Positions 1,070 through 27,977 of a stretch of 44,446 nt of DNA are shown here, piece after piece. The DNA comes from a virus. The stretch spans positions 1-44,446 of IMG/VR virus record IMGVR_UViG_3300035085_000004. One strand, given 5' to 3'. The translations under genes and the position numbers were made by a program. The notes below the pieces were generated by a model. The model had not been told where the DNA came from, made no database searches, and worked only from the letters and a program-made list of their open reading frames with translations. The first letter of the stretch is position 1; the number at the start of each line of letters is the position of its first letter.

Positions 1070-3361
1070 ATGGGACAACAGTACAGCACTGTAAGCGCAG
1101 TCGGATATAACTCAGCTCCGCCGCCCGATGATGGCAGCCAAGTTGCGGCCAATCTTATTACTTGGGCCACGCATAAAAACAAGCTTGCGGACCCTCTGCA
1201 TGTGCAAATAGACGCCATCAATGCTGGGCTCGTTGCATATACCAATTTCTCCGTTCGCCAGATCACGGCGAGCGATAACACAGTCATCGGTGATCATCTG
1301 CGTTGTGTAGAAATTGCGCCCAACGTTTCGACTGCGGTAACTGTGTTCCTTGGTGATGCCGTGACGATGACGAGCGTCTATCGCGTCTTCATCAAGAACT
1401 CAAGTCCACTTCCGCAAACCATCGGTAGAGTTACTTCCGGTAACACGATTAACGGCGTAGCTGCGAACATAAGTATCTTCCCGGGCGATGGTTTGTTGCT
1501 GCAAACCAATAGCACGCCCAATGGTTATCTCACGTTGCAGGCCGCTGGGCCCGTAATGCTCAGTTTCGATAGTTATGGGGCCATTGGAGACGGCTCTATA
1601 GATGACACGGTAGCAATGCAGAGGGCGATTGCCGCCGGCAAGCTGCTCGGGAATTGCATTGTGTATGGAACGCCAGGAAAAACCTACAAGATCACGGGTT
1701 CGCTCCTGGTTGATGGTGATGGAGTCATCCTCGACTTCCGCGGATCGACGTTGAAGCCCACTGGATCGTCAAACTATTTCGCTATCCAATTTGCAGGTTC
1801 TGGACTTGGCACATCTACAGACGTGACAGTCGATGCGGCCAGGGGCGTTCGGGCTATCACAGTGGCAAGCGTAGCCAATGCAGCTCCCGGTGACTATCTG
1901 CATGTGATGGAAGATACCGGCACGATCCAATGGCTGCTAACCGCACGAATTCTTACAGAGGTAGGAAGCGTATGGACGCTCGACACGCCTCTGCCGTTCA
2001 CCATTACAGCAGCAAATGCGCAGACCGTAGCGAAGTGGACGCCAATCTCATACGTCGGGCTTAGAAATGTTCACATCGATGGCAGCGCATGGACAGGAAC
2101 CGCTTGCGTCGGTGTGGCGGTCTACGATGTGGCGTTCGGTGTGTTCGAGGATATCCGCATCACCGGCAACAATTGGGGCAAGGGCTTCGAGTCGTTCCGA
2201 GGATACAGAAATAAGTACGACAACATCGAGCTCTATCAAGCTGGCGGCGGCACTATCGTCGATCAGGATTTTCAGATAGGGCGCGAAACTGCATCGACGA
2301 TACGCTGCATCAAGTCCGTCGGATCGTATGGGTTTGGCCCAACGATTGTCATGGGGTCGTATTGCAATATCTCCGATGTAACATCAATAAACACTGCCGA
2401 GCGCGGATTCAAGTTGCAGCAGTCCGTAAACTGCACTGTCGCAAACGTCCAAGTGATCGGAGCAGGTACGACCGGATTCGGGGTCGTCGTCGGGAGCCAG
2501 TACAACGCCATTAGTAACATCACGGCTGTAAAGGCGGGAACGAAGGGCACGGCTGGCGTGCAATATGGAATATGGCTAGACGCAGCCTCGAACAACAACA
2601 ACGTCATTTCAAATATCCAGTCATACGCTAACGGCGAATTCGACATCATCGCTCAATCGGGCAGCTCGGGAAACATATTCGACAATGTGCGCGTGTCGGA
2701 TATGACGAAGATACAGCTCAACGGCAATCCGGTGATGAACATCAACGGCGATCTCGGAATCTTTGTGTCCGATGATACCGGCTCCGGTGGCCCGACATTT
2801 TGGGTAGATCGATATTCTGCTTCGCCAGCGGTTAATGATGTGCTCGGCGTGTTCAACTTCTCCGGTCGTAACAGCGCCGCATCCAGAGTCACATACGCAT
2901 CCATGCGCGCCATTATTGCCGACGCGACGGCAGGATCGGAGGACGTTCAATTCGCGTTGCAAGCGCTCGTTGCCGGTGCTGCCGTAGATCAGATTTACTT
3001 CGGCAATGGCGTTCAGATCGGTGCGCCTACCGGTGGTTTCCTAGGCACCGGGAAGCTGAATGTCGCGGTCGATGTGTTCAAGAACAACACCGCCTATAAC
3101 AACCCCGACTATGTGTTCGAGAAGGCATTCACCGGCGAAATTAGCAGGTTCGCCGACAGTCCTGGAGCGAAAGATTACACGGGGCCGGTTCCGCTTGACT
3201 CACTGGAAGCTTTCGTTCGCGAGAAATTGCATCTGCCGCGCGTATCTCGTGACCCTGCCGGGATGTTCGAGCGCAGCGATATCGTCCTGGAAAAACTGGA
3301 GGAACTGACGCTCTATGTGATCGAGCTTCATAAGCGGCTGACGGCGCTTGAGTCTCGCTAA
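1070..3361 (+). CDS. tail spike protein with pectate-lyase-type beta-helix
   Basis: A 763-residue protein. Residues 1-160 would form the virion-attachment and neck part. Residues 166-190 carry the classic GDGSIDDTxAxQxAI motif (GDGSIDDT at 173-180) of the Pectate_lyase_3 / right-handed beta-helix family used by phage spikes to bind and often cleave O-antigen or capsule. Residues 200-560 show Asn-, Val- and Ile-rich beta-helix rungs. The last ~50 residues form a predicted coiled coil (LEKLEELTLYVIELHKRL) suited to trimerisation. No S74 autoprotease motif is visible. A ribosome site (AAGGAATG region) precedes ATG 1070. The glycan target cannot be read from sequence. Confidence 0.88.
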   Translation: MGQQYSTVSAVGYNSAPPPDDGSQVAANLITWATHKNKLADPLHVQIDAINAGLVAYTNFSVRQITASDNTVIGDHLRCVEIAPNVSTAVTVFLGDAVTMTSVYRVFIKNSSPLPQTIGRVTSGNTINGVAANISIFPGDGLLLQTNSTPNGYLTLQAAGPVMLSFDSYGAIGDGSIDDTVAMQRAIAAGKLLGNCIVYGTPGKTYKITGSLLVDGDGVILDFRGSTLKPTGSSNYFAIQFAGSGLGTSTDVTVDAARGVRAITVASVANAAPGDYLHVMEDTGTIQWLLTARILTEVGSVWTLDTPLPFTITAANAQTVAKWTPISYVGLRNVHIDGSAWTGTACVGVAVYDVAFGVFEDIRITGNNWGKGFESFRGYRNKYDNIELYQAGGGTIVDQDFQIGRETASTIRCIKSVGSYGFGPTIVMGSYCNISDVTSINTAERGFKLQQSVNCTVANVQVIGAGTTGFGVVVGSQYNAISNITAVKAGTKGTAGVQYGIWLDAASNNNNVISNIQSYANGEFDIIAQSGSSGNIFDNVRVSDMTKIQLNGNPVMNINGDLGIFVSDDTGSGGPTFWVDRYSASPAVNDVLGVFNFSGRNSAASRVTYASMRAIIADATAGSEDVQFALQALVAGAAVDQIYFGNGVQIGAPTGGFLGTGKLNVAVDVFKNNTAYNNPDYVFEKAFTGEISRFADSPGAKDYTGPVPLDSLEAFVREKLHLPRVSRDPAGMFERSDIVLEKLEELTLYVIELHKRLTALESR

Positions 3362-12320: not shown

Positions 12321-12517
12321 GATGGGCTCCTCGATGAAGTACGATCACGCTCTTTCAGCATCGCGTCCGCCACGAAGTAAGCGTAGGCTGCAGCTTTCTC
12401 GAACATCTTGCCCAGCATGGGCGCGGGCGCGCCCGGAGCCGTCTGATCGGCGGCCACTCGGATGCATTCAACGAGCGCCGCCGCAGCGAAGTGGTCGCGC
12501 AAGGACATGGCGTCCAT
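12317..12517 (-). CDS. small hypothetical protein
   Basis: 66 residues from ATG 12517, whose A is shared with the TAA of the preceding gene. Ala-rich helices (FAAAALVECIRVAAD, FEKAAAYAYFVADAMLKE). A coupled early gene of unknown role. Confidence 0.6.
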   Translation of the reverse strand: MDAMSLRDHFAAAALVECIRVAADQTAPGAPAPMLGKMFEKAAAYAYFVADAMLKERDRTSSRSPS

Positions 12518-12696
12518 TAGTACGCCCCGCCCAAGCCGACTAGTTGGACTTCGAGGCTGCAAATCTCGGCCCAGTCGGCGCCGGATTCGGCCTTCATCAT
12601 CCTGGCCTTTATCTCGGCCTTAAGTTCCTCGATCCTCTTGGCGATGGCCCGCTTCGCTTGCTGCCTTGCTTCTTCGACCTTGTAGTGCCTTTTCAT
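12517..12696 (-). CDS. small coiled-coil protein, first gene after an internal promoter
   Basis: 59 residues from ATG 12696, chosen because AAGGAGG lies 5 bases upstream. Highly charged helix (EEARQQAKRAIAKRIEELKAEIKARMMKAE) likely forming a coiled coil. It is the first gene leftward of the divergent promoter at 12716-12776, so this part of the operon can be transcribed apart from the main early-left promoter. Role unknown. Confidence 0.7.
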   Translation of the reverse strand: MKRHYKVEEARQQAKRAIAKRIEELKAEIKARMMKAESGADWAEICSLEVQLVGLGGAY

Positions 12697-12715
12697 GGGG
12701 GCCTCCTTGTTTAAC

Positions 12716-12776
12716 TGTGTAGACATTAAATCATGTCCAAGGAGAGATTGCAATGATTATTTGTGTAGACTACAAT
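12716..12776. promoter_or_regulatory. divergent promoter pair sharing one palindromic -35, with two repeats
   Basis: TTGCAA at 12748-12753 is its own reverse complement. Rightward it is followed, after exactly 17 bases, by TACAAT (12771-12776). Leftward it is followed, after exactly 17 bases, by TTTAAT (12725-12730 on the minus strand). The 9-mer TGTGTAGAC occurs at 12716-12724 and 12762-12770, next to each -10 box; the right copy belongs to a palindrome TGTAGACTACA (12764-12774). The RHH protein at 12784 is the obvious candidate to bind these repeats. Confidence 0.72.
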
Positions 12777-12783
12777 TCGGATC

Positions 12784-12960
12784 ATGAATGCACAGAAACG
12801 GGGCAGGGGGCGGCCTCCTGTCGAAGGTCCGACAGCGGAGGAGCAGATCCATATCCGCGTCAGGAAGGACGACAAGGCCAGATACGAGCGCAAGGCGGCC
12901 GGCGTAGGGCAAACCCTGTCCGCCTGGATCAAGAAGGTGCTCGACCGCGCGAGTAGGTAA
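12784..12960 (+). CDS. ribbon-helix-helix (Arc/MobC-like) regulator
   Basis: 58 residues from ATG 12784 on the plus strand, against the direction of the surrounding operon. Basic flexible N-terminus (MNAQKRGRGRPP), a strand EQIHIRVRKDDKARYERKA, and GQTLSAWIKKVLDRA: the beta-alpha-alpha pattern of RHH repressors. The ATG lies only 7 bases beyond a TACAAT -10 box, so the mRNA is probably leaderless. It likely represses both divergent promoters. Whether it also governs anything else cannot be seen. Confidence 0.72.
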   Translation: MNAQKRGRGRPPVEGPTAEEQIHIRVRKDDKARYERKAAGVGQTLSAWIKKVLDRASR

Positions 12961-16753: not shown

Positions 16754-16782
16754 AATATAGGCGCACCTAAACACGAAGTCAA
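16754..16782 (-). promoter_or_regulatory. strong early-left promoter (PL-like)
   Basis: On the minus strand, TTGACT (16782-16777), a 17-base spacer, then TATATT (16759-16754): near-consensus sigma-70. Two operator-like repeats overlap it, one over the -10 and spacer, one touching the -35, so the repressor would block it. It drives the whole run from 16706 down to int. Confidence 0.82.
16757..16770. promoter_or_regulatory. repressor operator, early-left site 1
   Basis: ATAGGCGCACCTAA (minus strand TTAGGTGCGCCTAT) differs at one position from the site at 17247-17260 upstream of the cro-like gene. Half-sites TTAGG/CCTAT form an inverted repeat. It covers the -10 side of the early-left promoter. 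Confidence 0.68.
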
Positions 16783-16854: not shown

Positions 16855-17187
16855 CTACCGACGTTTTTGCTGGTTCAGCAGGGTTTGGGCGAGGGCCATA
16901 AGCGTTGCCTTATTGCCATCGTCCAGCGCGTCGTAGGTCGCAGTGAGCTGCGCGTCCCAATCCTCGCCCCTTTTTCCCTTGGGCCGGGCCGCCAGGATGT
17001 CCTGGATCGGCACGGCCAAGGCGCGTGCTATGGAGTGTAGGGTTTCAAACTTGGGCATCCTTGTTACTCCCTTTTCCAGCGCCCACACGCTGGGTTGGGA
17101 AAGCTTCGCCCGCCGGGCGAGTTCGGCCTGGTTCCATCCCTTTCCCTCCCGGAGAGAGACGATCTTGCTAGGGTCGTAAACGAGCAT
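16855..17187 (-). CDS. CI-like phage repressor (HTH_XRE, no LexA-type domain)
   Basis: 110 residues from ATG 17187. Residues 5-65 form an XRE helix-turn-helix (IVSLREGKGWNQAELARRA / KLSQPSVWALEKG, then FETLHSIARALAVPIQDI). The C-terminal part is a helical dimerisation tail (DAQLTATYDALDDGNKATLMALAQTLL). There is no peptidase domain, so induction would not be by RecA-driven self-cleavage, unlike lambda. It should maintain lysogeny by binding the TTAGG...CCTAA operators at both early promoters. Its own start lies close behind a possible -10, with no clear ribosome site. Confidence 0.85.
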   Translation of the reverse strand: MLVYDPSKIVSLREGKGWNQAELARRAKLSQPSVWALEKGVTRMPKFETLHSIARALAVPIQDILAARPKGKRGEDWDAQLTATYDALDDGNKATLMALAQTLLNQQKRR

Positions 17188-17268
17188 ACGCCTATTTTGC
17201 TTCCGGTCAACTTAGGTGTGGCTAAAGAAAATTTGACTCGCATCCATTAGGTGTGCCTATAATAGTTC
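17188..17268. promoter_or_regulatory. immunity operator/promoter region
   Basis: Rightward promoter: TTGACT (17233-17238), 19-base spacer, TATAAT (17258-17263). Operators TTAGGTGTGGCTAA (17212-17225) and TTAGGTGTGCCTAT (17247-17260), the latter covering the -10; a weaker half-match (ATAGGCGTATGC, minus strand) at 17184-17195 overlaps the repressor start. For the repressor a weak -10 (CAAAAT) ends six bases before its ATG. The layout of three sites between divergent regulator genes is lambda-like. Confidence 0.75.
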
Positions 17269-17552: not shown

Positions 17553-17786
17553 ATGTCCTACTCCGATCCTTCATTGATCCGCGATGTTGTTATCAAGGTC
17601 CGTCTCAACGACGTTGAGGACGATCTGCTAGAGGCCGTAGCGAAGTACACCGGCCAGCAGAAATCTACTTTGATGCGTGAGCTGTTCATGGAGCAAGCCA
17701 AACTCGCGTTAGCAGGATTCGGCGATGTTGGCGTATTGGGACGTGAGAAGGAAGAACCACAAATGGCCCTGCAATTGGCCCGATAG
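17553..17786 (+). CDS. CopG/RHH-like protein
   Basis: 77 residues from ATG 17553. RDVVIKVRLNDVEDDLLEAVAKYTGQQKSTLMRELFMEQAK fits a ribbon-helix-helix fold (strand, helix, turn with a Gly-Gln, helix), as in small CopG-type regulators. Gene 2 of the rightward early operon; may regulate early transcription or be half of a lost toxin-antitoxin pair. Confidence 0.68.
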   Translation: MSYSDPSLIRDVVIKVRLNDVEDDLLEAVAKYTGQQKSTLMRELFMEQAKLALAGFGDVGVLGREKEEPQMALQLAR

Positions 17787-17806: not shown

Positions 17807-17992
17807 GTGGGCCACGACAACTTGGTGCTCTCGAAAGAAGAGGCGAAGCTTGCCAAGCAGATTGCCGAACGCGAAGGAATCACTGAAGAAGAAGCCGCAA
17901 CCCGGCTATTGCAAGCGGCCATTGCTAGGCGCGTGCGAAAGAGAACCGGGAAGGGCCCTGCGAAGGTCTACACAATGAGAGCGAAGCGATGA
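17807..17992 (+). CDS. small helical basic protein
   Basis: 61 residues from GTG 17807. SKEEAKLAKQIAEREGITEEEAATRLLQAAIARRVRKRT is a helix-turn-helix-like RHH C-terminal pattern, then a basic tail. Overlaps the next gene by 4 bases (ATGA). Likely DNA-binding; unknown role. Confidence 0.65.
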   Translation: MGHDNLVLSKEEAKLAKQIAEREGITEEEAATRLLQAAIARRVRKRTGKGPAKVYTMRAKR

Positions 17993-22243: not shown

Positions 22244-22495
22244 ATGTCCCTCCCCCCATTTTTCGGAGGCTTTTTGGCTGATTTGAGGAAGTGTCCAGCG
22301 GGGCACGACTACTGGTTCCCTGGTGAGAGGTGGAAGCACAAGGACTGCGTCGTTACGGCGCCTGTCGTTACGCAAGATGTCGTTACGGAAGTGAACAAGG
22401 CCGCGAGCCGGCAAGTGTTGTGGCAGCGCGCTAATCGGGAACGCTATAACCAGAAGATGCGGGAGTATAGAAGGCGTGCCCGATTACCTTCGTGA
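22244..22495 (+). CDS. small Cys/His protein
   Basis: 83 residues from ATG 22244. CPAGHDYWFPGERWKHKDC puts Cys-x3-His and His-x2-Cys 10 residues apart (a zinc site), followed by a linker with VVTQDVVTEV and a basic helix (RERYNQKMREYRRRAR) as in tails of phage HNH-like proteins. The nuclease core is absent. Overlaps the next gene by 20 bases. Confidence 0.65.
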   Translation: MSLPPFFGGFLADLRKCPAGHDYWFPGERWKHKDCVVTAPVVTQDVVTEVNKAASRQVLWQRANRERYNQKMREYRRRARLPS

Positions 22496-23567
22496 CTTCC
22501 GCGAGGTCGTAAGCAGGGGGTCGGGGAGTCAGTTAAAGCGCGAACGGCTTCTGAAGAAGATAGCCAAATTCGAGCGGACATGCCGTGAGGTTGGGGCGAA
22601 CGTCAACGACTATCCCCAAGCCAAGCTGATCGAGTGCCTGGTAGAAGACGGTCACGGAGACTTCCGCGACCTGATGTTCCAATTCTGCGTGGCCCGGCTG
22701 GTTCGTGATGACTTTTCCGACTGGTCGGGCTGGGAATACCGGAACGAATGGGCGATGGGGTCCTACTCACCGGAGATTCCAAACAGACGCTGGAGACTTG
22801 AGCCGATCGAGTCCATAGCGATCCTTGGAGAACAAGGGATTGGGGACGAGATCATGTTCGGGAGTTGTATTCCCGACGTGATGGTCCGGGTTCCAAAAGT
22901 CGTTTATGAATGTGATCCCCGATTGGTCGAGCCGTTCAAAAGGTCATTGAGAATTGACTGTAAGGCTCGCGAGGACATTACCAACCGCGGGGACCCGGTA
23001 ATCCGTTACCTGACCCGCAAACGCCCTGAAGACGCTTTTATCCCTGTTGGAGACCTGCCCCGGCTGTTCCGAAAGTCTCGTCACCATTTTCCGGGGAAGC
23101 CATTTTTGCGGCCGTTGCCTGAGATGGTGGATAAGTGGAAAGGTCTTAGGGGGCGGACGGGAATTGCCTGGCGAGGTAGAACGGGCCAATTACCAGCCGC
23201 GGAGCTGGGGGTCGCAGATCCCGTTTGTCTTCAGTATGACGCGTGGCCCTACGAAACCGAGGGCCTGACGGTTCCAGGCTGCGATTTGCGGGAGGACGTA
23301 GAGGACATCCTCGGGATTCTGGCGAATCTTGAGCGTGTGATAACGGTTCCGCAGACCATCGTCCACTTTGCCGGCGCCGTTGGCTGTCCGGTCGAAGTGA
23401 TTTTGCCCCCGGTAGGGTCTTCTAGAATCGAGGACCAATTCCGCTGGCGCTATATCGACCCGATGCCGTGGTATCGAGATGTCAGCGTCAAAGGAAGTCC
23501 TCCGGCTCACAAAGAATATTGGAACGGAGAAGTCCTCTACCGCAGTGATAGCAAGGCCGCCGATTAA
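22476..23567 (+). CDS. GT9/GT41-like glycosyltransferase
   Basis: 363 residues from GTG 22476. The first ~105 residues are helical. Then IAILGEQGIGDEIMFGSCIPDV, the nucleotide-binding signature of heptosyltransferase-like (GT9) and TPR-linked GT41-like enzymes (GEQGIGDExMF), a second Rossmann half from about residue 230 (GIAWRGRT), and DILGILANLERVITVPQTIVHFAGAVGCPVEVILPP, the donor-binding ExTxxxHxAGAxGxPV motif. Likely transfers a sugar from a nucleotide donor. No TM segment. First glycosylation gene of the inserted cassette. Confidence 0.82.
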   Translation: MPDYLRDFREVVSRGSGSQLKRERLLKKIAKFERTCREVGANVNDYPQAKLIECLVEDGHGDFRDLMFQFCVARLVRDDFSDWSGWEYRNEWAMGSYSPEIPNRRWRLEPIESIAILGEQGIGDEIMFGSCIPDVMVRVPKVVYECDPRLVEPFKRSLRIDCKAREDITNRGDPVIRYLTRKRPEDAFIPVGDLPRLFRKSRHHFPGKPFLRPLPEMVDKWKGLRGRTGIAWRGRTGQLPAAELGVADPVCLQYDAWPYETEGLTVPGCDLREDVEDILGILANLERVITVPQTIVHFAGAVGCPVEVILPPVGSSRIEDQFRWRYIDPMPWYRDVSVKGSPPAHKEYWNGEVLYRSDSKAAD

Positions 23568-23588
23568 GGCGAGCATCTAGGAGTTCTT

Positions 23589-23930
23589 ATGAGTATAGAA
23601 AGATACGACGTTCGCAGGGGGCGCATTCGGCCGTCCAAAAAGGGCAAGTGGGTAAAATTCGAAGAATATGCTTCATTGTATTTTGAGTTAGATGACGAGC
23701 GCGATTTAAGAGAAGATGATCGCGCTCGTCATCTAGACGAAATAGAAGCCTTGCGCAGAGGAATATCGCAAATAAATGCGGTTATGGAAACAACGTTCTA
23801 TAACAAATCTTTTGAAGATGCCGCCATATGGTTTGAACAGAAGGCGTCAGAGACAGCTTCGTCAGAAAAAGAATCCTACTTAAGGGTTGCAGAACAGCTT
23901 AGGAATATGAAAAAGGCAAATGACATCTAG
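23589..23930 (+). CDS. orphan acidic protein in the sugar cassette
   Basis: 113 residues from ATG 23589 with AGGAGTT 6 bases upstream. Basic N-terminus (RRGRIRPSKKGKWVKF), then a long charged helix (ELDDERDLREDDRARHLDEIEALRRG), and a C-terminal helical part. Base composition is visibly more A+T-rich than the flanking glycosyltransferase genes, suggesting separate acquisition. No family recognised; not obviously related to sugars. Confidence 0.65.
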   Translation: MSIERYDVRRGRIRPSKKGKWVKFEEYASLYFELDDERDLREDDRARHLDEIEALRRGISQINAVMETTFYNKSFEDAAIWFEQKASETASSEKESYLRVAEQLRNMKKANDI

Positions 23931-24090
23931 TAAACGCCAGAGCGATGCTCTCATAACGTGGGCTGGGATAAAAACGAAATTGCAAGACCCATTCGCAAAA
24001 CTTAGTTACGATCTTAGAAAAAATAAAATAGACGAAATAGTTATGCAGCTAAGTGAAAAGCGTCTTCGTCGTTATCTCTCAAAATCTTGA
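23920..24090 (+). CDS. orphan 56-residue protein in the sugar cassette
   Basis: From ATG 23920, overlapping the preceding stop, to TGA 24090, overlapping the next start. Basic helical: SDALITWAGIKTKLQDPFAKL then YDLRKNKIDEIVMQLSEKRLRRYLSKS. A+T-rich like its neighbour, so the two probably arrived as a pair. Too short for usual cut-offs. No family recognised; a small toxin/antitoxin or anti-host role is possible but unproven. Confidence 0.55.
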   Translation: MTSSKRQSDALITWAGIKTKLQDPFAKLSYDLRKNKIDEIVMQLSEKRLRRYLSKS

Positions 24091-24779
24091 ACGTCTGCAT
24101 AGTAGGGCACGGGCCGAGTCTTAAGACTGCTGGGTTAGGTAAGAAAATCGACGCCTGCGACAAGGTGGTCCGTTTAAAGAACTGCTCCTACCTCCTCGCC
24201 GAGCCGCAAAATTACGGCAAGAAGACCGATGTGATGTGCAGCTCGACCGAAGTCTTACACCATTTGCACAAGGTGAAGGCTTCCGAATACTGGGGATATC
24301 CCAAGTATGGGACCTATAACCAAGCCTCTGTTTCATGGCTTGAACGAAAAGTTGGACAGGTTTATATCCCCCTGGACCTGACGAACCTATGGAACTGCTT
24401 TTTCCTGGAGCTTGGAGGTCGTCACCCCAACGTTTCTACCGGCATGGGCGCGATCGTCATAGCCTTGGACAGATTCAAGCCAGAGGTTCTTTACCTGGCA
24501 GGTTTTGACACGCTGTTAAATCCAGCGATTAAGTATTCATCGACCGTAGAGACTCCGTGGAACAAGGACGGAAATTATCCCGACCACGATTGGGAGGTCG
24601 AAAACCAAATGCTGCCGTTCCTTGCGGCGCATTTCAATGCGGAGATCCGGGACCTTGCTGGCAGTCACGACATTTTCCCAAGCGGGTTACGAACTGTATG
24701 GAAAGAGATGCCTCGAAACTCTGAAGACGTGCTTTCCTGGGAGGATAGTCGCGTTCTACGAACAGAAACCCGACATTGA
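24087..24779 (+). CDS. GT29 (sialyltransferase-like) glycosyltransferase
   Basis: 230 residues from TTG 24087, overlapping the previous stop. Residues 2-31 (NVCIVGHGPSLKTAGLGKKI then DKVVRL) match sialylmotif L, and HPNVSTGMGAIVIALDRF with VLYLAGFDT (about residues 112-142) matches sialylmotif S of family GT29. No membrane anchor. It would use a nucleotide-activated acid or deoxy sugar; the donor cannot be inferred because no CMP-sialate synthase is present. The last ~40 codons overlap the next gene out of frame, an unusual length that may reflect a frameshift or deletion. Confidence 0.78.
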   Translation: MNVCIVGHGPSLKTAGLGKKIDACDKVVRLKNCSYLLAEPQNYGKKTDVMCSSTEVLHHLHKVKASEYWGYPKYGTYNQASVSWLERKVGQVYIPLDLTNLWNCFFLELGGRHPNVSTGMGAIVIALDRFKPEVLYLAGFDTLLNPAIKYSSTVETPWNKDGNYPDHDWEVENQMLPFLAAHFNAEIRDLAGSHDIFPSGLRTVWKEMPRNSEDVLSWEDSRVLRTETRH

Positions 24780-25362
24780 AGGCATAGACCTTCGAGACTT
24801 CAGCGAGATTCCCGGAGTCTGTGAATACCTGGAAAGGCTAAAACGCCAACCCGGGGCGGATGGTACTGGACCTGACGGTTACGACTACCGTTACGACGCC
24901 AATAAGTTCTGCCGCAAGGTCTTCGCCCAGGATGCGGTTTTCGATGAAGACCAATACGTCTTCTGGATCGACGCCGATTGCATCGCTCTACAGCCGATGC
25001 CGGAGAAGTTCATGGAAGCCTTGCTCTCCGATGTGCCATTTTGTTACTTGGGTCGCAAGGCGACCTACACGGAAACAGGATTTCTCGGCTTCAATACGAA
25101 GCATGAGAAGTTTGCGGAGTTCAGGTCTAAATATCTTTCCTACTTCACCAGCGGGAAGATATTCAGTCAATTGAAAGGATGGCACGACTGCATCGCTTTC
25201 GACTATGCGAGACAGGGAATTCCTGGTAGGAACTTAACTCCCGATGGTTCAGGCGTAGGAAACGTCATAGTCGGGTCTAAGGTCGGGAGGTATTTAACGC
25301 ATTTGAAGGGCGCCAGAAAGTTCAGCGACAAGCACCGATGCGCGCCCTCATTACCGGCGTAA
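24655..25362 (+). CDS. DxD-type glycosyltransferase
   Basis: About 235 residues; TTG 24655 or ATG 24637 are candidate starts (a TTG at 24622 is further). It begins AVTTFSQAGYELYGKRCLETLKTCFP and has YVFWIDADCIAL, a DxD donor/metal site, with GFLGFNTKHEKFAEF following: a GT-A fold enzyme. Overlaps the GT29-like gene by ~125 bases and the dehydratase by 25. Acceptor unknown. Confidence 0.75.
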   Translation: MLAVTTFSQAGYELYGKRCLETLKTCFPGRIVAFYEQKPDIEGIDLRDFSEIPGVCEYLERLKRQPGADGTGPDGYDYRYDANKFCRKVFAQDAVFDEDQYVFWIDADCIALQPMPEKFMEALLSDVPFCYLGRKATYTETGFLGFNTKHEKFAEFRSKYLSYFTSGKIFSQLKGWHDCIAFDYARQGIPGRNLTPDGSGVGNVIVGSKVGRYLTHLKGARKFSDKHRCAPSLPA

Positions 25363-26258
25363 CCGGACAGGACGGTTTTTATCTATCCAAGCTGCTCCTA
25401 GAAAAAGGCTATCTGGTTTTTGGCTTGGTAAGGCGTTCAGCGCAAGGCGAAGAAATACCTGAAGGCATTGAGGTTCTAAGCGGGGATGTAACCGATCCTC
25501 TGAACCTCGACAGAATTTACGCCGATGCAAGACCGGATGAGACCTACAACCTGGCGGCGATGTCGCATGTTGGAGAGTCTTTCAAGGTCCCTGCTGCGAC
25601 GATTCAAACAAATACGCTCGGGTGCCTGTATTTGCTTGAATGCGTCAGGAAGTATGGGGGCAAGTTCTATCAAGCCTCGAGCTCCGAGATGTTCGGGGAC
25701 TCTCCAGCTCCGCAGAATGAGAAAACGCCGTTCAGACCGAGAAGCCCTTATGCCATAAGCAAGGCCGCGGCTTACTGGTTGACGGTGAATTACCGGGAGG
25801 CGTATGGACTCCATGCATCCAACGGAATCCTTTTTAACCACGAATCTCCGAGACGTGGAGAGGATTTTGTCACGCGCAAAGTCTGTATCGCTGTGGCTCG
25901 AATCGCTCGCGGACTTCAAGAGAAATTACTACTTGGAAACCTCGACGCCGTTAGAGATTGGGGCCACGCCGAAGATTTCACCTTCGGAATGTGGCAGATC
26001 ATGCAGCGAGATCCCGGGGATTTCGTCCTCGCCACCGGGAAATCCAGGTCAGTTAGGGAGCTTCTGGATGTTGCCTTTCGCGTGGTGGGCATTCGCGATT
26101 GGTCTGGATATGTAGAGGTCTCCTCGAAACTTTATCGGCCGACAGAAGTAGAAAATCTCTGCGGCGATGCGAGGACGTCGTCTTTTTGGGAAACAACGCT
26201 CAGCTTCGAGGACATGATTAGCGAGATGGTTCTGTGCGAGTTGGCCCGCTTATCCTAG
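25338..26258 (+). CDS. gmd: GDP-mannose 4,6-dehydratase
   Basis: 306 residues from ATG 25338, somewhat shorter than the usual 340-370. GVTGQDGFYLS (residues 7-17) is the NADP-binding glycine loop. SSSEMFG (114-120) supplies the catalytic Ser/Thr-Glu, YAISK (138-142) the Tyr-x3-Lys, and NHESPRRGxxFVTRK (167-181) is the signature that separates Gmd from other short-chain dehydratases. It converts GDP-mannose to GDP-4-keto-6-deoxymannose, precursor of GDP-fucose, rhamnose, perosamine and colitose. All catalytic residues are intact. GDP-mannose would come from the host. Confidence 0.9.
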   Translation: MRALITGVTGQDGFYLSKLLLEKGYLVFGLVRRSAQGEEIPEGIEVLSGDVTDPLNLDRIYADARPDETYNLAAMSHVGESFKVPAATIQTNTLGCLYLLECVRKYGGKFYQASSSEMFGDSPAPQNEKTPFRPRSPYAISKAAAYWLTVNYREAYGLHASNGILFNHESPRRGEDFVTRKVCIAVARIARGLQEKLLLGNLDAVRDWGHAEDFTFGMWQIMQRDPGDFVLATGKSRSVRELLDVAFRVVGIRDWSGYVEVSSKLYRPTEVENLCGDARTSSFWETTLSFEDMISEMVLCELARLS

Positions 26259-26902
26259 TCTCTGGCGGGTTCGATCCCCTGCATATCGGGCATTTGAGGT
26301 ATTTGCAGGAATCAGCTATGTATGGAAGCGTGATCGTTGCTCTTAATTCGGACGCCTGGCTGAGAAGAAAAAAGGGATTCGTATTCCAGAGGTACGAGGA
26401 GCGCTGCGAAATCCTCAAAGGCTTGTCCTGCGTCTCGGATATTTATGCGGTTGACGACTCCGACGGGACGGTCAAGGAAGCGATTAGCACACTCAAGCCT
26501 TTCGCCTTTGCGAAGGGTGGCGATAGGACGGACATGAACACCCCGGAACTTTCTCTTTGCAAAGAACTCGGGGTTAATCTGCTATGGAACATGGGGGGCG
26601 CAAAGTCTCAAAGCAGTTCCGCGCTGATAGAGAAGCTTTGGGGATATTACGAAGTATTGGCAGAAGGTCCCGGGTACAAGGTAAAGAGGCTGATGCTGAT
26701 GCCTGGGAAAGCTACATCCCTGCAAAGTCACGGTAGGAGATGCGAGCACTGGATATTCCCGGCGTCGAATAAATACCGTTTCGTCGCACAAGGCGAGAAA
26801 CACCAGTTATCGGCCGGCGATGAAGAATTGACCGTGATCGAGGTACAGACCGGGGAATGCGACGAAGAAGACATAACCCGGTATGAAGCTCTCGCACAGT
26901 AG
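26234..26902 (+). CDS. HIGH-motif nucleotidyltransferase fused to a cupin domain
   Basis: 222 residues from GTG 26234, overlapping gmd by 25 bases. Residues 7-26 (ILVSGGFDPLHIGHLRYLQ) carry the HIGH motif (17-20) of the cytidylyltransferase-like superfamily (HldE-C/RfaE2, TagD); KGGDRT and SSSALIEKLW complete the nucleotide site. From about residue 147, VKRLMLMPGKATSLQSHGRRCEHWIF matches the C-terminal cupin of ManC-type mannose-1-P guanylyltransferase / phosphomannose isomerase. The fusion suggests activation of a sugar phosphate with sensing or isomerisation. The NTP used is unclear. Confidence 0.75.
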   Translation: MRVGPLILVSGGFDPLHIGHLRYLQESAMYGSVIVALNSDAWLRRKKGFVFQRYEERCEILKGLSCVSDIYAVDDSDGTVKEAISTLKPFAFAKGGDRTDMNTPELSLCKELGVNLLWNMGGAKSQSSSALIEKLWGYYEVLAEGPGYKVKRLMLMPGKATSLQSHGRRCEHWIFPASNKYRFVAQGEKHQLSAGDEELTVIEVQTGECDEEDITRYEALAQ

Positions 26903-27977
26903 TTGGGGCGAAGAAGAGAGAAAAGCCGTACTCGAAGTCCTGGATTCAGGTTCCTACACGATGGGCGCTAAGGTTCGGGACTTCGAGAAGGCTTACGCAG
27001 ATTATTGCGGCTCGAAATATTGCGTGATGGTCAACTCCGGGTCGTCGGCCAATCTTTTGATGGTGGCCGCTTATACGATTCGCTATGGACCTGGGATTGT
27101 CGCTGTCCCAGCTCTAGGCTGGCCCACGAGTTATATCCCTTTCCATCAGTACGGATGGAAGCTGCGGTTTGTAGATATCGACCGCGAGACTCTTAACTAC
27201 GATCTTGAGAAGCTATGGCACGCAAACGCAGACGACAGCCTAGACCTGTGCCTCGCTATTAACGTTTTGGGGAATCCGAACGAGTTCAAAGGATTTCCCA
27301 GGCGGGTAAGGGTTCTTGAGGACAATTGCGAGTCCATGGGGGCCGAGTACGGAAATAAAAGGACTGGCACCTTTGGTTTGATGTCCTCGCACTCCACGTT
27401 TTTCTCGCACCATATCTGCACGATGGAAGGCGGAATGGTGACGACCGATGATGAATATTTCTATCACATGCTCCTGAGTTTAAGGAGTCATGGATGGACA
27501 AGGCATTTGCCGGAAAATAACCAGCTCGGCGAGAAAGTAGAGAACTGGCGTTTTATTCTCCCAGGTTACAACGTCAGGCCCATCGAAATGATGGGGGCTG
27601 TAGGTTTAGAGCAGCTAAAGAAGCTGCCGGAGATCGTCAGGCAGAGGCGAAAGAACGCAGAGACATTTCCTTTACCCACTCAAAAAGAGATTGGAAAGTC
27701 CTCCTGGTACGGGTTCGCGCTTCTGTCTGACGATATCGAAGCCTTAAAGGCGAATCTCGAAGGCATCGAGTACCGCCCAGTGATCTCGGGGAATTTCACC
27801 CGGCATCCGGTCATCAAGTATTTCGACTACGAAGCGCCAGACCTACCCAATGCGGATTACGTCCACGATCACGGGGTAATGATCGGGAACCATCCGACGC
27901 CAATAAACTGGAGAGAGTTATTCTTAGAGTCTTCATCGGATATGACGAGCATGAAAAACTCGCATATCACGTCCTAA
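26883..27977 (+). CDS. DegT-fold PLP enzyme with His for Lys: probable NDP-4-keto-6-deoxysugar 3-dehydratase
   Basis: 364 residues from ATG 26883. Signatures of the DegT/DnrJ/StrS fold: NSGSSANLLMVAA (51-63), VPALGWPTS, and LEDNCESMGAEY (145-156, with Asp147 for the PLP pyridine). At the place where aminotransferases carry the PLP lysine it reads FFSHHICTMEGGM (173-185): His176/177, no Lys. This is the hallmark of ColD and RfbH/E1, PMP-dependent enzymes that remove the C3 hydroxyl instead of aminating C4. With Gmd beside it, the expected product is GDP-4-keto-3,6-dideoxymannose. Whether it binds PMP needs testing. Confidence 0.8.
   Translation: MKLSHSSWGEEERKAVLEVLDSGSYTMGAKVRDFEKAYADYCGSKYCVMVNSGSSANLLMVAAYTIRYGPGIVAVPALGWPTSYIPFHQYGWKLRFVDIDRETLNYDLEKLWHANADDSLDLCLAINVLGNPNEFKGFPRRVRVLEDNCESMGAEYGNKRTGTFGLMSSHSTFFSHHICTMEGGMVTTDDEYFYHMLLSLRSHGWTRHLPENNQLGEKVENWRFILPGYNVRPIEMMGAVGLEQLKKLPEIVRQRRKNAETFPLPTQKEIGKSSWYGFALLSDDIEALKANLEGIEYRPVISGNFTRHPVIKYFDYEAPDLPNADYVHDHGVMIGNHPTPINWRELFLESSSDMTSMKNSHITS

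Follow-up and report, generated by a model that had tools for sequence, protein, structure and literature searches.

A palindromic -35 element common to two predicted divergent promoters beside an RHH gene in a temperate phage

Introduction

When two divergent promoters meet at a single -35 hexamer, how is transcription divided between the genes on either side? Such an arrangement is predicted in the genome of a temperate phage, in a window of 44,446 nt (the whole stretch of DNA that was analysed; IMGVR_UViG_3300035085_000004, positions 1 to 44,446). A sequence-only reading had proposed that it forms a built-in either/or switch next to a gene for an RHH regulator. The arrangement was therefore examined for its departure from chance, its products, its candidate operators and its recurrence elsewhere. 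The intergenic stretch between the leftward ORF and the RHH gene spans 12697-12783, and the features discussed are as follows.

12517-12696, minus strand: 59-aa ORF (orf59), first gene of the leftward unit (ORF, codon scoring)
12716-12724, plus strand: copy of TGTGTAGAC directly downstream of the leftward -10 and over the predicted start, candidate operator (sequence, shuffles)
12725-12730, minus strand (plus-strand ATTAAA): TTTAAT, predicted -10 of the leftward promoter, spacer 17, with an extended -10 TG (TGATTTAAT) (matrix scoring)
12735-12743, plus strand: GTCCAAGGA in the leftward spacer, alternative candidate operator (9-mer comparison)
12748-12753, both strands: TTGCAA, a perfect palindrome, predicted -35 for both directions (sequence and promoter scoring)
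12762-12770, plus strand: copy of TGTGTAGAC in the rightward spacer, adjoining the -10, candidate operator (sequence, shuffles)
12764-12774: palindrome TGTAGACTACA, continuation of the right TGTGTAGAC copy (sequence)
12771-12776, plus strand: TACAAT, predicted -10 of the rightward promoter, spacer 17 (built-in scanner and matrix scoring)
12784-12960, plus strand: 58-aa predicted RHH protein, the rightward product (ORF, codon scoring, fold prediction)

Results

Two Predicted Promoters around One Hexamer

The elements originally noticed, TTGCAA used on both strands with 17-bp spacers to TACAAT and TTTAAT, are all in place. Every position on both strands of the window was scored with a sigma-70 weight matrix. 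The two divergent promoters ranked 4 and 5 among 444,150 candidates, the leftward one being rank 5, with near-equal scores of 11.0 and 10.9. For an exactly shared -35 the value at this site was 10.9, compared with 5.7 for the second-best in the window, and no dinucleotide shuffle of the intergenic region reached it in 10,000 trials. Even when -35s offset by up to 3 bases were allowed, none of 2,000 shuffles attained the observed value. These comparisons confirm that the layout lies well above chance. The built-in promoter scanner reports the rightward promoter only, because TTTAAT has no A at position 2; the extended -10 (TGATTTAAT) partly compensates for this weaker element. The scores support a pair of strong divergent promoters with a common palindromic -35.

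The Rightward Gene and Its Product

The ATG at 12784 is the sole possible start of the RHH gene, since an in-frame TAG at 12766 closes the frame upstream, and it is preceded by no Shine-Dalgarno sequence. The rightward -10 ends at 12776, 7 nt before this ATG, which places the predicted transcription start at or next to its A; the RHH mRNA is thus probably leaderless. The lambda cI mRNA made from PRM is a precedent for such a message. Codon use of the ORF is phage-like in its own frame only, as judged against the other five frames.

In a single-sequence AlphaFold model of the protein, helices were predicted at residues 28-41 and 45-57 with a pLDDT of about 85, and the RHH strand itself was unformed in this monomer model. 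The best structural match was CopG (Z 4.8, 1.9 A over 41 residues), followed by AtaR, PutA, AmrZ and Arc-type proteins, and nearly all of the best matches were RHH proteins. Overall the model agrees with the strand-helix-helix fold of about 45 residues by which RHH proteins are recognised. Fold prediction and weak profile matches together support the initial assignment of the product as an RHH protein; the structural matches bear it out, but the best curated model, NikA-like, fell below its cut-off (E 4e-4, 20.8 bits versus 27). The gene was also considered as half of a toxin-antitoxin pair, and this was set aside, no toxin-like partner being recognised.

Searches of viral contigs, named phages and 84,980 species genomes returned no homologue of the protein. 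Among 369 genomes from the class of a gammaproteobacterial MAG with a portal relative, the only hits were two weak matches (E about 5e-4), and none of the 369 carried the consensus promoter geometry in its chromosome. At the DNA level, the sole relative of the 9.6-17.5 kb region was a 100-bp ERF stretch in mycobacteriophages, with none in plasmids, and relatives identified through NinB were without this locus. Viral stretches with two TGTGTAGAC copies were coding or AT-rich coincidences, none with a comparable RHH cassette.

The Leftward Unit

On the other side, a perfect Shine-Dalgarno sequence (AAGGAGG) lies five bases ahead of the orf59 ATG; the leader is predicted to be 22 nt long, from an expected start near 12718, and codon scoring prefers the orf59 frame over the other five on that stretch. 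Profile searches, which covered orf59 and a few of its neighbours, assigned orf59 to no confident family and gave no nuclease match for it. A 22-residue match to L002 lies inside an integrase frame and was dismissed as chance.

The suggestion that an internal promoter would let 12517-5805 be expressed separately from the main early-left promoter is plausible. Between 16.7 and 5.8 kb, no leftward terminator candidate clearly exceeded what shuffles gave, and transcription from the internal promoter would thus supplement early-left read-through and not replace it. The main early-left promoter is itself likely to be the TTGACT-17-TATATT at 16754-16782 on the minus strand, which lies directly downstream of the CI-type gene and scores highest in the window (rank 1). 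The cro-side promoter at 17233 is rank 2 by the same matrix.

Other features of the window were observed in passing. The -10 of a minus-strand TTGACC-16-TATGCT at 17183-17210 overlies the CI start annotated at 17187, and the CI-type protein therefore probably has a more downstream start or a transcript that originates elsewhere. A second RHH-type protein (DUF6290 / RelB-like, PHROG 4113) is encoded at 17553-17786 in the early-right operon, after a P22-Cro-like gene. A run of sugar-nucleotide/glycan genes, with ORFs judged by eye, occupies 22476-27977 of this temperate phage and includes GDP-mannose dehydratase-like, nucleotidyltransferase, aminotransferase and glycosyltransferase-like genes.

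Direct Repeats as Candidate Operators

The exact TGTGTAGAC repeats reported beside both -10s are present, 46 bp apart, within a direct repeat of 14/17 identity (82% over 17 bases). They exceed chance, as none of 5,000 shuffles gave a repeat with 9 exact bases inside 14/17. The two copies have the same orientation and hence no symmetry about the -35, and their separation corresponds to about 4.4 turns, out of helical phase. A third copy, on the minus strand at 17966-17974, is within coding sequence and near chance expectation; intergenic copies occur only at the promoter pair that adjoins the RHH gene. An origin by target-site duplication was ruled out by the 37 bp between the copies and by the similarity reaching 17 bases.

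The placement of the repeats bears on their possible function. The right copy fills the rightward spacer and the left copy covers the leftward start, so that co-repression rather than toggling is predicted, and one protein on both repeats would probably shut both promoters. Another candidate is GTCCAAGGA, a 9-mer that L040 and L113 also have in their leftward (cargo-side) spacers and for which the chance of a match is about 0.4-0.8% by our own estimate. As an operator common to these loci it is a lead that may be due to chance, given that the RHH strands differ. Elsewhere, at least seven TGTGTAGAC copies lie in about 300 bp of L005 (around 3127-3300, reverse strand), with no apparent link to an RHH gene.

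Recurrence of the Geometry in Viral Contigs

Viral contigs were scanned, blind to genes, for ATTATA-N16-18-TTGCAA-N16-18-TATAAT. There were at least 120 matches, and those listed came down to 77 distinct sites after removal of near-copies. In a spacing control, for which the left spacer was lengthened to 22-24, the matches listed amounted to 84-86 sites. Both spacers were exactly 17 at 35 of the 77 distinct sites among the matches listed, where 1/9 would be expected from a flat distribution. A count of 35 is also what the margins predict (8.6 if flat, again for the matches listed); each side prefers 17 independently, which argues that both directions are in use. In the control, the displaced spacer was distributed flatly among the matches listed. 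On these sequence statistics, the geometry is under selection in other viral contigs.

The gene neighbours point the same way. Divergent genes flanked 25 of 77 sites versus 11 of 86 controls (p = 0.004) among the matches listed. An RHH gene, scored with a local HMM and required to start within 140 bp of a -10, adjoined 23/77 sites versus 2/84 spacing controls (p = 1e-6, matches listed), and in both of these control sites a further, in-register ATTATA lies 17 bp from TTGCAA. Within the matches listed, such neighbours were found at 18 of the 35 sites with 17/17 spacing and at 5 of the 42 others. The local HMM was trained on some of these same RHH proteins; Pfam is independent of them, and among the 50 genes that flank the 25 divergent sites listed it placed RHH_3 in 14, with RHH_1 and RHH_5 in a few. 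PHROGs likewise annotated 14 of those 50 listed neighbours as 'Arc-like repressor'. The RHH_3 cassettes are mutually related, which limits these counts; several RHH families are represented at the sites (RHH_3, CopG-like, Arc-like and the L059/L044 type).

On the side opposite the RHH gene, Pfam recognised HNH, GIY-YIG, NUMOD and IS605 OrfB (TnpB) families, and at 17/17 sites the RHH gene usually faces a homing endonuclease or TnpB. A small RHH_3 'Arc-like' regulator and, divergently, either a homing endonuclease or IS605 OrfB/TnpB are encoded in L040, L051, L052, L062, L098, L117, L122, L124 and others. These cassettes have the palindromic -35 in common and often a palindrome such as AACTACATGTAGTT or AGTCCAAGGACT, which lies in the cargo-side spacer and overlaps or abuts TTGCAA. 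The recurrence of RHH regulators beside the shared -35 geometry is the most interesting result of the analysis.

The window resembles these RHH-nuclease cassettes (RHH_3 / PHROG 3180) in the palindromic TTGCAA as common -35 with 17/17 spacers, in the small RHH gene on one side and in the CAT (extended -10 TG) next to the cargo or left -10. It differs from them in several respects. The cassettes have a perfect TATAAT both ways, whereas the window has TACAAT and TTTAAT. They belong to AT-rich phages and mostly carry RHH_3, whereas the RHH protein of the window is of a different family: the class HMM gave no match to it at E 10, and hhalign against the class returned a probability of 1.7. Their cargo is mostly a homing endonuclease or IS605 OrfB/TnpB and their RHH gene is not leaderless; in the window, the leftward cargo is not a nuclease and the RHH gene is predicted to be leaderless. 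An operator-like palindrome in the cargo-side spacer also marks the cassettes. The exact window pattern (ATTAAA...TAYAAT) was found in 39 stretches in full viral-contig scans versus 40 for the spacing control, with no RHH gene beside such sites and with divergent ORFs at 10/29 versus 4/24 controls (p = 0.21). The class supports the reading of the window by analogy, without proving membership.

Discussion

A Model for the Control Region and Its Alternatives

The explanation that we favour, with a probability of roughly 0.6, is an autoregulated divergent control region within the left operon of a temperate phage, in which the RHH protein represses both promoters. The symmetric TTGCAA would accept RNA polymerase in both orientations. 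One of these would yield the leaderless mRNA for the 58-aa RHH protein, and the other a leftward transcript that carries the strong ribosome site of orf59 and could run towards the integrase. The RHH protein would most likely bind operators in both spacer/start regions, the TGTGTAGAC repeats being the best candidates, and turn both promoters down. The shared -35 would couple the two outputs, each loading event giving the regulator or the cargo message but never both. Counting against this model are the lack of a homologue of the RHH protein and of a match to the class profile, the spacing of the repeats out of helical phase, the non-nuclease cargo, and the exact window pattern, which is no more frequent than its control and has no RHH neighbours.

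That one polymerase should bind at a time, as first proposed, follows from the geometry, since one sigma region 4 at a time can hold the hexamer; the relevance of this exclusion would depend on promoter strength. To call the locus a built-in either/or switch goes too far: the promoter scores are equal and the repeat positions predict co-repression. Moreover, at five bidirectional promoters of E. coli, basal initiation is too rare for polymerases to compete, and one direction suppresses the other only under strong activation (PMC12825309). Autorepression of both promoters is favoured over a toggle because competition depends on promoter strength. A true bistable switch is quite improbable here; in it the RHH protein would repress the leftward promoter and favour its own, like Rco in pLS20, and cells would commit to one direction. 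There is a precedent in pLS20, where overlapping divergent promoters form part of such a switch together with a regulator and DNA looping (PMC4207663), and in the recurring RHH class the operator-like palindrome abuts TTGCAA from within the cargo-side spacer, a position upstream with respect to the RHH promoter. Against this, one of the window repeats is inside the RHH gene's own promoter, by the -10, which predicts autorepression, and with equal scores competition alone would give no bias.

It is also unlikely that the promoters are real and the RHH protein inactive at them, with the repeats bound by another regulator or left over from a promoter duplication. Candidate binders do exist (the CI-type protein of 16855-17187, the RHH protein of 17553-17786 or a host protein), the window holding a CI/Cro pair and a second RHH protein, and similarity over 17 bases at 82% is what a duplicated promoter half would leave. 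This account sits poorly with the confinement of intergenic TGTGTAGAC repeats to the two promoters by the RHH gene, and with the large excess over control of RHH genes at exactly this geometry in other phages. We consider it very improbable that the rightward promoter alone functions and the leftward half, with no conserved -10 A, is a chance look-alike. TTTAAT did not pass the built-in scan and the exact window pattern is not enriched among viral contigs, but the leftward half ranks 5 in the window and has both an extended -10 TG and a 17-bp spacer, its predicted start precedes by 22 nt a gene whose ribosome site is perfect, and no shuffle in 10,000 matched the shared -35.

Autorepression at a shared -35 would have wider interest. 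One symmetric -35 that serves both directions through optimal spacers, and that lies repeatedly beside an RHH gene, appears to be a compact regulator-cargo module, of which we found no description in the open-access literature searched. It would offer a simple, testable system for how the ratio of a regulator to its controlled gene depends on polymerase competition and autorepression. More tentatively, and with some doubt on our part, the shared -35 with 17/17 spacers might be a recurrent, convergent RHH-autorepressor device giving a burst and then shut-off, with the window as a fifth lineage. If so, RHH autorepressors in phages would control a divergent selfish or accessory gene, the hexamer partitioning polymerase between regulator and cargo. 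Entry into a naive cell would bring a burst of cargo expression, followed by shut-off, and the fifth RHH lineage, that of the window, would drive the distal early-left genes of a temperate phage.

Comparison with Known Systems

Overlapping divergent promoters are textbook material. The cases compared here (P22, pLS20 and the E. coli bidirectional promoters) share or interlock their -10 elements or nest whole promoters. The closest studied system is P22 immI, the layout of which was read from X01916.1. Like the window, it belongs to a temperate phage and combines RHH regulators with two divergent overlapping sigma-70 promoters that have 17-bp spacers and lie between two small genes. The functional parallel is good and the topology differs. 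In P22, the arc-ant promoter (-35 at 302-307, -10 at 325-330) and the mnt promoter (-35 at 335-330, -10 at 312-307) are nested antiparallel, each -10 abutting the other's -35, whereas the promoters of the window are back to back around a common -35 with the -10s outward. In P22 immI, moreover, an RHH gene lies on each side and an antirepressor is present.

In the bidirectional promoters of Warman and Grainger (PMC12825309), as in the window, symmetry permits two orientations and one binding event excludes the other. Those promoters have a common -10 and starts 10-23 bp apart; the window, with two separate -10s, a common -35 and predicted starts about 66 bp apart, falls outside that shared -10 definition. 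The Pc and Pr promoters of pLS20 (PMC4207663), likewise carried by a mobile element, diverge and overlap next to a regulator gene. There, Rco acts through flanking operators and DNA looping on promoters of unequal strength, in contrast to the near-equal scores of the two promoters described here.
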